51,833 bases of DNA from Erysipelotrichaceae bacterium (GTDB taxonomy: Bacteria > Bacillota_I > Bacilli_A > Erysipelotrichales > Erysipelotrichaceae): contig JALENJ010000017.1 in assembly GCA_022767445.1 (NCBI GenBank), forward strand, positions 1 through 51,833, in the 5' to 3' direction. Shown here piece by piece: positions 30,381-37,857 of the stretch; position 1 is the stretch's first letter, and each line of letters starts with the position of its first letter. The notes beneath the pieces were generated by a model, which saw only the letters and a program-made list of their open reading frames with translations, made no database searches and had not been told where the DNA came from. Position numbers and translations under genes: made by a program.

Positions 30381-30704
30381 TCAGATGTCTAAGCAACGAA
30401 CGAATTCCTCTACTGCCTCTTTTCGCAAGCGATAATATGATGATTTCGCATAGTAGTTATAGTACCAGTTACGTGGTGACTGCATGAGGAAATCATGTTT
30501 GATAATACATGCAGTATCCTTTGAACAATTCTGCATGATTTCTTCAATCATATACTCGATTCCCTGTTGTACATATGATGGTGAGTATTCATGCATGTCA
30601 TTATGATTTGATATACGAGATTTTGTTTGTTCTTTTCGGTACATTTGTCCTAGGCTTTTTAGCATTTCGATTTTTGTTTCGTATGATAACTGTCTCAAGC
30701 TCAT
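30381..30704 (-). CDS. small HTH-like protein (ArpU/MG284-like), function unknown
   Basis: A 107-residue protein with GAGGGGG before its ATG. It is largely helical. The C-terminal segment YYAKSSYYRLRKEAVEEF resembles the terminal helix-turn-helix of ArpU-type phage late-gene regulators and of the mycoplasma MG284 family. I cannot assign a role. It sits alone between ptsI and hpf. A second protein of similar size and terminal motif lies at 35382-35720. Confidence 0.65.
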   Translation of the reverse strand: MSLRQLSYETKIEMLKSLGQMYRKEQTKSRISNHNDMHEYSPSYVQQGIEYMIEEIMQNCSKDTACIIKHDFLMQSPRNWYYNYYAKSSYYRLRKEAVEEFVRCLDI

Positions 30705-30860: not shown

Positions 30861-31388
30861 TTATTTACTTACTTCAAGTAAACCATATCCTCCACTAGAG
30901 CGACGATATACAACAGATACTGTCTCTGTTTCATCATCTGTATAGATGTAGAAGTTATGTCCACTTAATTCCATTTTCATAATCGCTGTATCTAAATCCA
31001 TCATCTCTGCGTCGACTGTCTTTGTCTTAACTGGGATGGAACTTTGTTCATCTTGTAATTCAGCATCGATGAAGGCTGTAGCTAGGTGTTCACGATGTTT
31101 CTTATTGAGTCTTGTCTTTTGACGGCGAATCTGATCTTCTAACTTATCGATTGCCAAATCAACGGCTGCGTAGAAATCATCGTTAACGACTTCTGCTCTT
31201 AAAATACCTACGCGTGATGGAATTGTAACTTCTACCTTTTGTGAGTTTGGATAAACTCTAGCTAGTACTCTGGCAATGGTGTTTTCGTCGATGAGTAAGT
31301 ACTTATCCAAAGCGGATAGCTTCTCTTCGATCTTCTCTTTCATTGCTGGTGTAACTGTAACGTTCTTACCTACAATTTCAAATCTCAT
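30861..31388 (-). CDS. hpf: ribosome hibernation promoting factor, long form
   Basis: A 175-residue HPF that dimerises 70S ribosomes into inactive 100S particles in stationary phase. The N-terminal domain (~1-100) has MRFEIVGKNVTVTPAM and the basic KLEDQIRRQKTRLNKK stretch; the C-terminal dimerisation domain (~120-175) has LSGHNFYIYTDDETETVSVV. The start at ATG 31388 has AGGAGG seven bases upstream; upstream in-frame codons are not conserved. A TATAAT element is visible at about 31445-31450. Confidence 0.93.
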   Translation of the reverse strand: MRFEIVGKNVTVTPAMKEKIEEKLSALDKYLLIDENTIARVLARVYPNSQKVEVTIPSRVGILRAEVVNDDFYAAVDLAIDKLEDQIRRQKTRLNKKHREHLATAFIDAELQDEQSSIPVKTKTVDAEMMDLDTAIMKMELSGHNFYIYTDDETETVSVVYRRSSGGYGLLEVSK

Positions 31389-31518: not shown

Positions 31519-32985
31519 TTATTCAACAAGTGTAAATAACCACTTTAATACAACGGTCATAGCGTAGGTATCCATACCACAATACGCCTTTAAATCTGCA
31601 ATACTTTTTTCAATATCTACATCATCCATATTCTTATCAAGATTTCGCCATGCAAAGACCGCATCCATCCCTTGTTGGATTGATAGTGAATTGTACCCTT
31701 CATCATCCATCATTGCCATGATGGTTTTTAGTGACCACTGTCCCCTCATACGTACATCATAAACAACTCCTTGAGAGAATGGTAATTGTAAGTCTTCCAT
31801 GCGTGCATTGATCTGTAGTAGATCCTTTGCATATGCAGGGAATAAATCTGCTAGCTCTTGAATACGTATCTTCTCTGCACCTTCTGCATTGTATGCTAGT
31901 ACACTTCCATTTTTTGGAATGGAAGTGATTAAGCTTTGTGCGATGTCTTCTCGATCATCATGTACATTGATATATACTTGATGATCGATATGCCCATCTG
32001 CATGCATGATATGCAAGGAGTATTCAAATGGTACTACATCATATGGATGCATACCCTTATATGGTGGTATTGCAAAGCGATCCCATTCAAAATCGATACA
32101 TGTAATTGGATACTGTAAACAAGATAGCCAATTCTTTAGACTATTTTGATCTACGAATAGACCACCGTTATAGTCTGCTTGTATCTGGGCATATTGTTGT
32201 GGTAGTCCTTCAATCAAATTTTCATCAGCGTCTTTTAGATATTTTCTTCCTGCTTGATACATCTTACGTTTATGTTGGGAAGCAATCAGTGTTAGGATTG
32301 AGTTATCTTCTATTTGATCTTCTTCTTTGAAGCATCGTTGATAATATCTACACTTCACTCTTCCGTTGCATACTGGTTTTCGTACTGGTTTGCCTGCGAT
32401 AACATGATTGCAGTTCTCCATTTCTTCTAATAGAAAAGTGATGTCATGCATGTTATCGTAAACAGTCTGCTTCAGATCACCACTTGGATTATCTTTATCA
32501 TTGTAGAAACATGTACTGATTGTAAATAACTGATTTGGATCGAGTTGTTCTTCTCTTTGGTATTCTTTGTTTAGATGTATCATATATATCTGTTTAATCT
32601 TGATATGCAGACCTTCTAATACCCATACCATATCACAATAGTATTGAATATCATCAACATGTGGATATAAACCTATATACATGAAGTACAGATCCCATCC
32701 ATCCCCATTGCGATGCAAGAAAGGTACTTTGATGCGTAGATTTTTGTACTCAAATCTCGCCTTCACTAACCAATCATACTCATAAAGAGCCCTCATCGCC
32801 AAGGATGGATCATCACTTTGTTTACCAAGAAAATGGTTAGTTACACCCAGCTTTTTCATCGCTAGCTCACTAACCGGTTCATCGATTCTTACATATGATT
32901 GATATACATGTTTTTCATCCTCTTGTTCATAAAGAAATAGATGAGGACAACGTGTATATTTTTTACAATCAGAAATGTGAAACAT
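31519..32985 (-). CDS. DUF2779 protein: Cas4/RecB-like domain fused to DEDD exonuclease-like domain
   Basis: A 488-residue protein. The N-terminal half resembles RecB-family PD-(D/E)XK nucleases with an iron-sulfur cluster: C13 near the start and C206, C212, C218 in the CNGRVKCRYYQRC motif. The catalytic strand expected after GDGWDL (95-100), usually E-x-K, reads F101-M102-Y103, so this core looks inactive. The C-terminal half has RNase H-like exonuclease motifs: DFE (298-300), N366/E368 and YCGMD with D472 (DEDDy pattern). GGAGA lies upstream. It follows the ROK kinase by 12 bases. Role unknown, probably DNA or RNA processing. Confidence 0.82.
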   Translation of the reverse strand: MFHISDCKKYTRCPHLFLYEQEDEKHVYQSYVRIDEPVSELAMKKLGVTNHFLGKQSDDPSLAMRALYEYDWLVKARFEYKNLRIKVPFLHRNGDGWDLYFMYIGLYPHVDDIQYYCDMVWVLEGLHIKIKQIYMIHLNKEYQREEQLDPNQLFTISTCFYNDKDNPSGDLKQTVYDNMHDITFLLEEMENCNHVIAGKPVRKPVCNGRVKCRYYQRCFKEEDQIEDNSILTLIASQHKRKMYQAGRKYLKDADENLIEGLPQQYAQIQADYNGGLFVDQNSLKNWLSCLQYPITCIDFEWDRFAIPPYKGMHPYDVVPFEYSLHIMHADGHIDHQVYINVHDDREDIAQSLITSIPKNGSVLAYNAEGAEKIRIQELADLFPAYAKDLLQINARMEDLQLPFSQGVVYDVRMRGQWSLKTIMAMMDDEGYNSLSIQQGMDAVFAWRNLDKNMDDVDIEKSIADLKAYCGMDTYAMTVVLKWLFTLVE

Positions 32986-32997
32986 AAATCTCCTATA

Positions 32998-33900
32998 CTA
33001 TAATCCTTCACTCATCGGTAACATTGCGGCACCAATAATACCTGGCTCATCCAAAGACGCAATGACAAATGGTGTATCTTGGATTGTTGTGTGTGACATT
33101 GCCTTGTAGTTCTCGATGACTTTTGGCAAGAACTTATCAGCAGACTTCATCATACCACCACCGATAATAAAGATATCTGGGTCGCATACACATGCGATAG
33201 TCGCAAACATCTGTCCTAAGTCTTTACAAGCCTCATCTACGATTTGGATCGCTTCAGGATTTCCATCTGCAGCTAGTTCAAAGACACTACCTGCATGCAG
33301 GATCTCATGATCATGAATCTTCTCTTTTGCCTTACGTGTGATATGTGTACCACTGGCTTCATTTTCAACCGCACCAATATTTAGGTCATTGATCTTCTGA
33401 CGATTGCGGTCAATGATGATGTTGGCAATCTCACCACCAAAACCATGCTTACCAGCAACTGTTTTACCATCTACAATCAAAGCTCCGCCGATTCCTGTAG
33501 AAATCGTAACGTAGTAAACAATACTCTTGTCTTTACCTGCACCAACTAAGGCTTCCGCAAGTCCTGCCACGTTGGCATCATTATCAATGAATGCAGGCAT
33601 GCCGAACTCACGAGAGAGTTCATCCGCAAATGGATATCCTGTAAATCCCTTCAGGTTTGTACTGATTACCATACTACCGGATTTCTTTTCAACTGGACCT
33701 GGTACACCAACTCCAATTCCAGAACAATCCTTCCAACCCGGTATATCACGTACCATATCCTTTAAATTGGACATAACTTTAGCTGGACCTTCTGTCCCAT
33801 AAGATGGGCCCTTTACCTGTGCAAGTACTTCACCAAACTCGCTTACCTTGGCAACACGAACATTTGTACCACCAAGATCAATTCCTATATATGTTTTCAT
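32998..33900 (-). CDS. ROK family sugar kinase (glucokinase-like)
   Basis: A 300-residue ATP-dependent kinase that phosphorylates glucose or a related hexose. The phosphate loop DLGGTN is at 8-13, the catalytic D108 is in DNDANVAG, and STGIGGALI binds ATP. The zinc-binding CxCGxxGCxE motif of ROK proteins is missing: residues 160-182 contain no cysteine. Some Firmicute glucokinases share this. No HTH is present, so it is a kinase, not a repressor. GGAGG lies just upstream. It is separated from the aminopeptidase gene by a terminator and is followed by DUF2779. Confidence 0.88.
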   Translation of the reverse strand: MKTYIGIDLGGTNVRVAKVSEFGEVLAQVKGPSYGTEGPAKVMSNLKDMVRDIPGWKDCSGIGVGVPGPVEKKSGSMVISTNLKGFTGYPFADELSREFGMPAFIDNDANVAGLAEALVGAGKDKSIVYYVTISTGIGGALIVDGKTVAGKHGFGGEIANIIIDRNRQKINDLNIGAVENEASGTHITRKAKEKIHDHEILHAGSVFELAADGNPEAIQIVDEACKDLGQMFATIACVCDPDIFIIGGGMMKSADKFLPKVIENYKAMSHTTIQDTPFVIASLDEPGIIGAAMLPMSEGL

Positions 33901-35381: not shown

Positions 35382-35720
35382 CTAGGAAATTATATCTTCT
35401 ATCATCTTTTTATACATTTGAAATCTTCTTTGTAATGTCCTTAAGGACATATGATAATAACTTGCGATATCTTTTTGTTGTTTACCTTCAACAAAGTACA
35501 TGTAGAACATCCCTCTTGCACTCTTGCCATGGGCAAGCTCCATATATTGTAAGATACGATCAATCTTATTTATCTGTGTCATAACATACTGATATTTTGC
35601 CTGCATGATATCATCCCTATGATCATCCTGTTTCATCTTATCCTCTAGGGATTGTTTTTGTTGTAGATAATAAGGATATTTCATACATAGATCTTTGATT
35701 TGATTTCTTTCACAGCTCAT
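35382..35720 (-). CDS. small HTH protein, sigma-70 region 4-like
   Basis: A 112-residue protein. The ATG at 35720 is preceded by GGAGGT; a longer reading upstream is not supported. The C-terminal part (FVEGKQQKDIASYYHMSLRT and RRFQMYKKM) looks like a sigma-70 region 4 or phage ArpU/RinA-type helix-turn-helix, while the N-terminal ~60 residues are helical and charged. No promoter-binding domain beyond the HTH is present. It sits between two operons; no known partner. Confidence 0.7.
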   Translation of the reverse strand: MSCERNQIKDLCMKYPYYLQQKQSLEDKMKQDDHRDDIMQAKYQYVMTQINKIDRILQYMELAHGKSARGMFYMYFVEGKQQKDIASYYHMSLRTLQRRFQMYKKMIEDIIS

Positions 35721-35768
35721 ATAAGCACCTCCAATGTTATATATGAGCCAAACACTATCATTCCACTT

Positions 35769-35790
35769 AAAAAGGGACTTGTTCAGTCCC
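35769..35790 (-). terminator. terminator after flavoprotein gene
   Basis: On the minus strand GGGACT and AGTCCC pair around five bases (35774-35790), then five Ts. It lies ten bases after the stop of the reductase gene. Confidence 0.88.
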
Positions 35791-35799
35791 CTATCGTTA

Positions 35800-37857
35800 T
35801 TACTTCGCTGCGTTTTCTCCTGCAATGCGTCCAAATGTGAAGATATCCGCTATTGCATTACCACCTAAGCGGTTTCCTCCATGAACACCACCAGTTACTT
35901 CTCCTGCTGCCCATAGGCCTTCGATCTTTTGTCCTTCTGCATTTATTACTTCAGCTTCTGTATTGATTACAACACCACCCATCGTATGATGTAGGCTTGC
36001 TTTTCTTGGTGAAATGATAAATCCTACATCTGGATTATTTTCAATCGCATCGATGTCTATCGCACCAGCAAGTACTTCTTTACCAAATTCTGGATCGTTT
36101 TGGCTTGCTACATAGCTGTTATATTTTTCAATCATTTCACGAAGTTTCTCTTCTGTAAAGTTTGGAGAAGCTCCTGCGGCTGGAGTCTTTGTAGCTTCAG
36201 CAAGTTCTTTCAATGTACTACCATACCAAATATCACCATGGTCAACGAGGTCCTTAATCTTCTTACCCATTGCCATATCATCTAGTGAAGCACCTTGGCA
36301 CATTCCATTCTCTCCATCCTTTACCTGTCCTGCATAGAAGATATAGAAGATACCATCATCTAGCTTTAAGGATGACTTTGCAAGTACATCACGTTCTGCA
36401 TACTCATCCACAAAGCGATTTCCTTCGCCATCAATCCAGATTTGTTCGGAAGCATCTCCCCAGACACCATCTGTCATTGTTCCCTTGGATGGGGATGATG
36501 AAGGCATTAATTGCGCAACCCCTAAACCTGTTGTTTGTGCTCCCACATCTTGTGCCATTACAATACCATCACCTGTAACAGTACCAACATTTGTTGTAAG
36601 TGTATGATCTGTTAAATCGTCACCCCAGTACTGGTCGTATTGCTTAACCATGGCAGGATTTGCACAGTATCCACCACTTGCAAGTATTACACCCTTGGAT
36701 GTATTGATGTGTACCAATGTTCCATCAGCCTTAGTAGCTTCTAGGCCGACAATATGATTGTCTTTTTCAATTAGTTTTGTGCCTGCTGTTTCTGTATAGA
36801 TTGTTACACCTAGATCTTCTGCAGCTTTTTTAAGCGCATCAATGAGTGGTTTGCCATTTTGGTACTGATGCGTACGAGGCCACATTGCGCCTAATACTGT
36901 ATATAGCTTGTCACCAGCACCGCTATGAGATGCAGTGTCGATACCTAAATCACCTGTCCAATCATACGCTTCTAGTGCTGTTTCAGCTAGTTTTTGTGCT
37001 AGATCTTTATTTGAGCAAATCCATGTACCGTCATTTAACTGACGTAATCCACCAATATAGATTTGCCACATATGTAAATAGATAGAATCATATCCTGGTA
37101 AATCAACACCTTCTACCTTACCCTCATTTGTGGAATAGAATGATTGAATATCCGCTTGTAAGTTCATTAGTACTTCTTTCCATTCTGGAAATTCATTGAG
37201 ATGAAGTGATTCATCCTCAGGATTTTGTGATAGATAATCATCTAATGTATGTTTTTGTGCGACTGTTAGAATACGCTCTGCTTGTGCTTGTGTATCTACA
37301 GCGTTGAATGCACCACCGGCCATCATTGTATCGCCACCCAAGAAAGAACTCTTTTCAACAAGAATAACTTTCGCACCATTTTGGGCAGCTGAGATTGCGG
37401 CGGATAAGCCTGCACCACCACCTCCTACGACAGCCACATCCGTATCATAGGTCTCATCTTTTCCTGCTGTCTTATGATATGCATTTCCTTTCAGAATTTC
37501 CATATCTAATCCAGCACTCTCTGCAGCCTTACTAGCAGCACTCATAATTGCACGTGAAGCGAAAGTCGCGCCAGTCACAACATCTAAATCTGTTGTTTGG
37601 TGTTCAACGATCTCACTTGGAATACGTTCCATTGCAACAGAAGCGACGCTTTCTGTTTCATGGCACTCTGTTAAGTCGACACCTGTAATTTGTCCCTTGT
37701 CGATATGCAAAGTAACACTAACATCACCTTGCATACCAGCAGAAGTACCAGTGAAATCACCACTGATCTTCTCAGATTGTTTTTTACTTCCTTGTGTGCA
37801 GGCAGCCATGGAAATTGCTGTTGCAAAAGCTAAACTACCCTTTAAAAATTGTTTCAT
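35800..37857 (-). CDS. FMN-binding, FAD-dependent fumarate reductase-like lipoprotein
   Basis: A 685-residue surface flavoprotein. The N-terminus is a lipoprotein signal with ISMAAC and the lipid-carrying C20. An FMN-binding domain (~33-115) has the flavinylation motif DVVTGATFAS (92-101, FMN likely on S101, attached by an ApbE-type transferase). A FAD domain starts at 138 (TDVAVVGGGGAGLSAA). The C-terminal GGVHGGNRLGGNA is conserved in fumarate/urocanate reductases. It probably passes electrons to an external acceptor. ApbE and an electron donor are not in the window. Ribosome binding site GGAGAGG. Likely controlled by the adjacent MerR gene. Confidence 0.9.
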   Translation of the reverse strand: MKQFLKGSLAFATAISMAACTQGSKKQSEKISGDFTGTSAGMQGDVSVTLHIDKGQITGVDLTECHETESVASVAMERIPSEIVEHQTTDLDVVTGATFASRAIMSAASKAAESAGLDMEILKGNAYHKTAGKDETYDTDVAVVGGGGAGLSAAISAAQNGAKVILVEKSSFLGGDTMMAGGAFNAVDTQAQAERILTVAQKHTLDDYLSQNPEDESLHLNEFPEWKEVLMNLQADIQSFYSTNEGKVEGVDLPGYDSIYLHMWQIYIGGLRQLNDGTWICSNKDLAQKLAETALEAYDWTGDLGIDTASHSGAGDKLYTVLGAMWPRTHQYQNGKPLIDALKKAAEDLGVTIYTETAGTKLIEKDNHIVGLEATKADGTLVHINTSKGVILASGGYCANPAMVKQYDQYWGDDLTDHTLTTNVGTVTGDGIVMAQDVGAQTTGLGVAQLMPSSSPSKGTMTDGVWGDASEQIWIDGEGNRFVDEYAERDVLAKSSLKLDDGIFYIFYAGQVKDGENGMCQGASLDDMAMGKKIKDLVDHGDIWYGSTLKELAEATKTPAAGASPNFTEEKLREMIEKYNSYVASQNDPEFGKEVLAGAIDIDAIENNPDVGFIISPRKASLHHTMGGVVINTEAEVINAEGQKIEGLWAAGEVTGGVHGGNRLGGNAIADIFTFGRIAGENAAK

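Follow-up and report, generated by a model that had tools for sequence, protein, structure and literature searches.

The 488-residue protein encoded at positions 31519–32985 of the window (the whole stretch of DNA analyzed here, 51,833 nucleotides from an Erysipelotrichaceae bacterium) is probably a single-chain DEDDy-type 3'-5' exonuclease, likely acting on DNA, that carries a non-cutting, Cas4-like iron-staple domain at its N-terminus, whose nuclease site appears to have been lost early in the Erysipelotrichaceae. This reading draws on sequence, fold, phylogeny and selection. We favor it because the catalytic columns of the N-terminal half are empty while its cysteines and the exonuclease residues are retained, because the altered form constitutes one clade with low dN/dS and near-fixed residues, and because of fold matches (of the exonuclease half to 5mdn and of the intact relative L005 to Cas4) and of core deaths elsewhere in which the exonuclease residues were mostly kept.

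The open reading frame lies on the minus strand and has no internal stops. Residues 297–418 of its translation match DUF2779 (PF11074) with an E-value of 5.3e-33 and 114.4 bits, above the gathering cut-off of 23.3; the UU173 family profile (NF045869) yielded 12.3 bits against a cut-off of 225. The product is thus a DUF2779 protein, with a putative N-terminal Cas4-like iron-sulfur half and a predicted C-terminal DEDDy-type 3'-5' exonuclease half, and its gene is the single DUF2779 gene of its genome. In the accessible part of an earlier survey, DUF2779 was assigned to RNase H-like clade F.17, predicted 3'-5' exonucleases with DUF83/PD-(D/E)XK (Nucleic Acids Res. 2014, PMC3985635), and the window protein has this same architecture. 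The features are the following.

31519–32985, minus strand: DUF2779 gene, 488 aa plus stop (open reading frame and Pfam).
32311–32985, minus strand: Cas4-like half (putative iron-staple PD-(D/E)XK fold), aa 1–225, lacking the catalytic residues (model and alignment).
32947–32949, minus strand: C13, putative iron-sulfur cysteine 1; C in 137 of the 139 variant rows having a residue there.
32677–32772, minus strand: core strands, aa 72–103, the expected catalytic site (model strands E72–80, E83–93 and E96–103).
32722–32724, minus strand: P88, where the catalytic D is expected; P in 129/139, an acid in 0/139.
32677–32685, minus strand: F101-M102-Y103, where E-x-K is expected; [EDQ]xK in 0/139.
32332–32370, minus strand: C206, C212 and C218, the other putative iron-sulfur cysteines; C in 140/140, 139/140 and 139/140 rows with the residue.
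31522–32115, minus strand: DEDDy-type exonuclease half, aa 291–488 (matching the family B DNA polymerase structure 5mdn, exonuclease domain, with Z 15.1).
32086–32094, minus strand: Exo I motif, D298-F-E300; D and E in 140/140 rows with the residue.
31873–31875, minus strand: third acid, E371, of the motif N366-x-x-G-A-E371; E in 140/141 rows with the residue.
31570–31584, minus strand: Exo III motif, Y468-x-x-x-D472; Y and D in 139/139 rows with the residue.
30861–31388, minus strand: hpf, ribosome hibernation factor, the next gene downstream (Pfam S30AE; start codon at 31388 inferred, longest open reading frame from 31457).
32998–33900, minus strand: sugar kinase gene (ROK family), which precedes the DUF2779 gene by 12 nt (open reading frame list and Pfam).

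A first-pass annotation of this DNA had judged the PD-(D/E)XK core to be probably dead, with F-M-Y in place of the expected E-x-K. At the level of residues, the alignment bears out both points: the segment GDGWDL is followed by Y-F101-M102-Y103. A second substitution had gone unmentioned, namely that of the preceding catalytic D by P88. Where intact DUF2779 proteins read x-V-D-I-L, then E-L-Y-E-V-K-S-S-T and, in the next helix, D-x-x-x-Q, the window protein reads K-V-P-F-L, W-D-L-Y-F-M-Y and, at the column of the helix Q, M.

Is this loss lineage-wide? The family sample comprised 195 Erysipelotrichaceae genomes, 141 of them with a DUF2779 place, plus L032, a named relative 59% identical to the window protein, and minus one 108-aa fragment (G069:C165). 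A separate search for related loci returned a single locus. The variant set held 143 sequences, window included; dropping four fragmentary rows left 139 with both strands. The loss is indeed lineage-wide: in all 139, column 88 is non-acidic and columns 97–107 contain no [EDQ]xK. Because it is common to 139 sequences, the pattern is not a product of chance. D, E and K are all present in the four intact copies from that family (L002–L005). The annotation had named catalytic residues displaced yet present as the outcome that would undo its claim; they were looked for and not found, and the empty columns settle the doubt over merely shifted residues. A looser pattern, D...[EDQ]xK anywhere in residues 70–130, occurs in four of the 139 (L015, L030, L047 and L179), in no case on the motif columns.

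We regard it as very improbable that the N-terminal half still cuts with other residues standing in for the lost ones. Such substitutes could be sought in K/R at position 109 (frequency 0.72) and E/D at position 110 (0.65), just past the strand, in the four loose matches, and in the helix Q, which is still Q in two of the ten variant rows shown at this variable column. However, the loose matches fall mostly at differing places, column 88 is P in 93%, columns 101 and 103 are mostly aromatic, and the window protein itself has M in place of the helix Q. Two accounts of why the core was lost were also rejected. The first, an absence of other RecB-type nucleases, does not hold for a genome with PDDEXK_1 matches in two long frames of a single contig, one of 898 aa and the other of 1108 aa containing a TAG, which we take to be AddAB-like. 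The second, a CRISPR role, was rejected as well; the Cas1 matches of the genome are on two other contigs. One of these, on contig 5 (L284, L286), is split over two frames, one of which has a stop; the other is on contig 58.

The cysteines C13, C206, C212 and C218, which the annotation had described as kept in the manner of Cas4-like nucleases, were confirmed in position, and all four are present in 136 of the 139 family sequences. Their layout, one N-terminal and three C-terminal, is the Cas4-type iron-staple pattern. As far as the accessible descriptions go, the iron-staple nucleases Cas4, Exo5, AddB and DNA2 likewise have four cysteines spanning a RecB-type nuclease fold (Exo5 being placed by fold); unlike them, the window protein is without the catalytic D and E-x-K and is fused to an exonuclease domain. 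For AddAB and Bad, the iron-sulfur cluster is described as important for the integrity of the nuclease domain in the text available (PMC7430649). Of the 72 rows with an intact core, four come from the window's family; across the 72, C stands at all four columns in only 39, most others having no C at the third, although the alignment behind this count may err at long mycoplasma-like inserts. In L049, an Erysipelotrichaceae relative, three of the four cysteines are gone and the exonuclease residues are retained. These cases, with the mycoplasma-like losses described below, indicate that some lines can dispense with the cluster and that it is not tied to an active core.

An AlphaFold2 model of the window protein (pLDDT 93.9) was compared with known folds. 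The exonuclease half, aa 291–488, has an RNase H-like fold: it matched the family B DNA polymerase 5mdn with Z 15.1 (aa 292–488, rmsd 3.0, 170 residues aligned) and exonuclease I with Z 13.2, and among the matches listed to these two kinds of exonuclease Z ranged from 12.6 to 15.1. It thus shares the fold of those enzymes; in the window protein the domain is joined to a Cas4-like domain rather than a polymerase, and its third acid is E. The N-terminal half, taken within the full-length model, matched Cas4 4r5q weakly (probability 0.94, E 0.029). The intact relative L005 (model pLDDT 94.4) gave clearer results: its residues 1–222 matched Cas4 structures 7mi4 (Z 14.4 over 185 residues) and 4ic1 (Z 13.5), and Foldseek paired it with Cas4 4r5q (probability 1.00, E 0.0017) and Exo5 7lw9 (probability 0.99). 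At the profile level, of 30 sequences in a mixed alignment the Pfam Cas4 model matched 7 when E-values up to 0.1 were allowed, the best being 0.0016. PADLOC Cas4 profiles matched two intact copies (E 1.4e-5 and 3.9e-6), and neither the PADLOC nor the PHROG profiles matched the window protein. A sequence search against solved structures returned two weak matches of other kinds, and a further search returned none.

The annotation had also held that the C-terminal exonuclease aspartates are all present. The four acids (D298, E300, E371 and D472) are there, but the third is E rather than D. The site reads D-E-E-D with Y-x-x-x-D, the four acids and tyrosine motif by which DEDDy enzymes are recognized. 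Glutamate at the third position is common to DUF2779, 71 of the 72 intact-core members reading DEEYD and the remaining row being without the last two positions. D298, E300, E371, Y468 and D472 are all kept in 136 of the 139 family sequences; of the other three genes, two run off the end of a contig and one is broken. The Exo II motif, by contrast, has been remodelled in the window's clade: one residue is inserted and F is replaced by A, giving N-x-x-G-A-E vs. N-x-x-F-E. Judging from sequence, this change could lower exonuclease activity. The clade F.17 account, in the part accessible, does not mention a loss of the core.

How is the dead form distributed? A DUF2779 match was found in 48 of the 59 Erysipelotrichaceae genera sampled, intact copies included. 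Within the family sample, a second copy with an intact core (L002–L005) occurs in four genomes. The window protein has matches free of internal stops in 67 of the 70 genomes of its genus, several being partial frames, and 15 of the 70 have a second, distant DUF2779-like copy; one of these 15, L282, has no readable gene. Fifteen second copies (14 from the genus and one from another) were readable, and the E-x-K pattern is present in 14, L269 being unmatched. A tree of the exonuclease part was computed by a quick method without bootstrap from 139 rows, a number kept down by omitting fragments, nearly identical mycoplasma rows and many rows of the family; L048, L207, L049, L221 and L224 sit on long branches. 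In this tree, the dead form is one clade within the Erysipelotrichaceae (64 rows, SH-aLRT 100). The intact Erysipelotrichaceae copies fall outside it, grouped with intact copies of other families, and the core state changes at least five times.

Other families contributed 84 members, 68 with an intact core and 16 without, two of the latter (L218, L227) being fragments; locus L217 had no usable frame. In L203, L205, L206 and L197 the core is dead, and both the cysteines and the exonuclease residues are retained. Seven mycoplasma-like members (L211–L213, L219, L220, L223 and L226) have lost core and cysteines and kept the exonuclease residues. L214–L216, from three genomes of another family, have a dead core, four cysteines and, at the exonuclease positions, the letters D-S-L/I-Y-K. 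The exonuclease acids having been lost too, neither site is essential for a DUF2779 protein to persist. In each of the three genomes this paralogue of about 552 aa, devoid of both nuclease sites (wider loci L279–L281), is flanked by a NUDIX-like gene on one side and rpsO-pnp on the other; these names come from reading the proteins rather than from Pfam.

L214–L216 provide a precedent for taking the window protein, too, as a pseudo-enzyme throughout, one in which neither half cuts and which serves as an iron-sulfur protein for binding or sensing nucleic acid; the remodelled Exo II motif points the same way. Nevertheless, we consider this improbable: the five exonuclease residues are invariant in complete members, a constancy not usual in dead sites, and most of these residues have gone from the paralogues that are truly dead. 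The features that count against a working exonuclease with a non-cutting Cas4-like domain are thus this double loss, the Exo II remodelling, the weak Cas4 match of the N-terminal half and the Pfam matches in only 7 of 30 members, the cysteine losses, and the presence of the basic residues in intact members, to which we now turn.

Selection was assessed from dN/dS in the 40 closest of 72 relative pairs, which share sequences and are not independent, include several with dS above 1 and one that is saturated, and do not contain the window gene (its nearest relative is 71% identical). The ratios were 0.04–0.33 for the N-terminal half and 0.03–0.15 for the C-terminal half. Such values point to purifying selection on both halves, so that the dead half, by this sequence measure, is not decaying. 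Within it, H3 (0.96), R77 (0.99), R84 (0.98) and P88 (0.93) are near-fixed. Purifying selection together with newly fixed residues argues that the dead half does something. A newly basic cleft as the mark of the dead form was considered and rejected: R84 is found in 19 of the 72 intact-core members, and at column 86, 28 of the 72 have R and 9 have K. A "basic cleft" therefore does not set the dead form apart. H3 occurs in 0/72 and R77 in 8/72, and the residues special to the clade appear to be only H3 and, mostly, R77. That the gene is a decaying pseudogene or an assembly error has nothing but the missing catalytic residues to recommend it; given the stop-free matches in 67 of 70 genomes of the genus (several of them partial) and a dN/dS far below 1 for each half in pairs drawn from relatives of the window gene, we discount it almost entirely.

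The gene neighborhood was then considered. As the annotation had noted, no CRISPR or recombination gene lies beside the DUF2779 gene; among the eight neighboring open reading frames scanned with Pfam none was of that kind, one of the eight being without a match. A tRNA scan found none. Two further proteins of the window were recorded: a 107-aa protein at 30381–30704, between hpf and ptsI, which has no Pfam match and recurs in 33 loci of 7 genera, and a 150-aa protein at 35382–35834 with a weak sigma-factor-like match (PHROG E 0.005). Codirectional hpf lies within 3 kb downstream of the dead form in 73 of 107 loci and 19 of 37 genera, and within 400 nt in 52 of 107; upstream, no hpf match was found in up to 3 kb. 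This adjacency may mean shared regulation or merely an old gene order. Intact copies occupy variable genomic places. L268 (by Pfam) and L278 (by likeness) overlap genes of an operon that includes a Y-family polymerase; L277 is followed by SbcD and SbcC and has a PARP-like gene upstream; elsewhere the neighbor is a WYL regulator, a MazG-like gene or an HNH gene. No repair gene was recognized in the neighborhoods of the remaining intact copies.

Could the exonuclease instead act on RNA in stationary phase, with the neighboring ribosome hibernation factor, rather than in DNA repair? The frequency of hpf downstream speaks for this, and RNases do occur among DEDD exonucleases. We nonetheless think it unlikely, while giving it more weight than any other alternative. 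In 18 of the 37 genera hpf is absent from the stretch of up to 3 kb examined, possibly an undercount given that some loci extend only ~1.5 kb; the fold comes nearest to the exonuclease domains of DNA polymerases and to exonuclease I; and a Y-family polymerase or SbcCD accompanies some of the intact copies. In M. bovis, according to the part of the report available, a DUF2779 insertion mutant reached titres below wild type with host cells and grew normally in axenic medium; the screen that yielded it also yielded mutants in DnaB, HolA and RecD, as well as in NrnA and GdpP (PMC7373297).

Returning to the DNA exonuclease with a non-cutting partner domain, a working model can be outlined. Once the D and E-x-K site had been lost early in the Erysipelotrichaceae, the Cas4-like domain would have become a non-cutting module, and its former cutting, of whatever kind, would have been given up. 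The four cysteines would still hold a [4Fe-4S] cluster that staples the N-terminal fold. The old active-site cleft, in which R77, R84, K/R86 and P88 are now conserved, may grip a single strand and feed its 3' end to the exonuclease half. With the cutting residues lost, the cysteines kept and selection continuing, the dead half, which the annotation had proposed as a possible DNA-binding or structural module, is probably a grip or scaffold for the exonuclease, that is, a repurposed iron-sulfur-stapled module for handling DNA, in which exonuclease activity, cluster and DNA binding are all predicted properties.

Precedents for such a fate exist. RecC retains a dead PD-(D/E)XK nuclease-like domain for DNA handling; it shares the dead fold with the window protein and differs in being part of a helicase complex and in having no known iron-sulfur cysteines. 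The nucleocapsid protein of virus TTV1 is likewise an inactivated Cas4-like nuclease, with a structural role, although it is viral and is compared here by its accessible description only (PMC5704561). No description of a dead DUF2779 core was found in the literature searched, most subscription journals being outside its reach, and a search on TM0106 and UU173 gave no lead.

More speculatively, and with low confidence, DUF2779 may represent the repeated conversion of a Cas4-type iron-sulfur nuclease into a non-cutting exonuclease partner. In the Erysipelotrichaceae this would have happened once, early, fixing H3, R77 and P88, and the domain would now act as an iron-sulfur gate, perhaps sensitive to oxygen, for choosing or holding the strand that the exonuclease degrades.

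The iron-sulfur clusters of Cas4, AddB and DNA2 are usually viewed as supports of the nuclease domain. The protein described here supplies a natural control for that view, as the site was lost across a bacterial family while the predicted cluster ligands were kept and the domain is still selected. Sister lineages, some having lost core and cysteines and others core and exonuclease, separate the roles of cutting, cluster and exonuclease, each of which can be tested with existing natural proteins.
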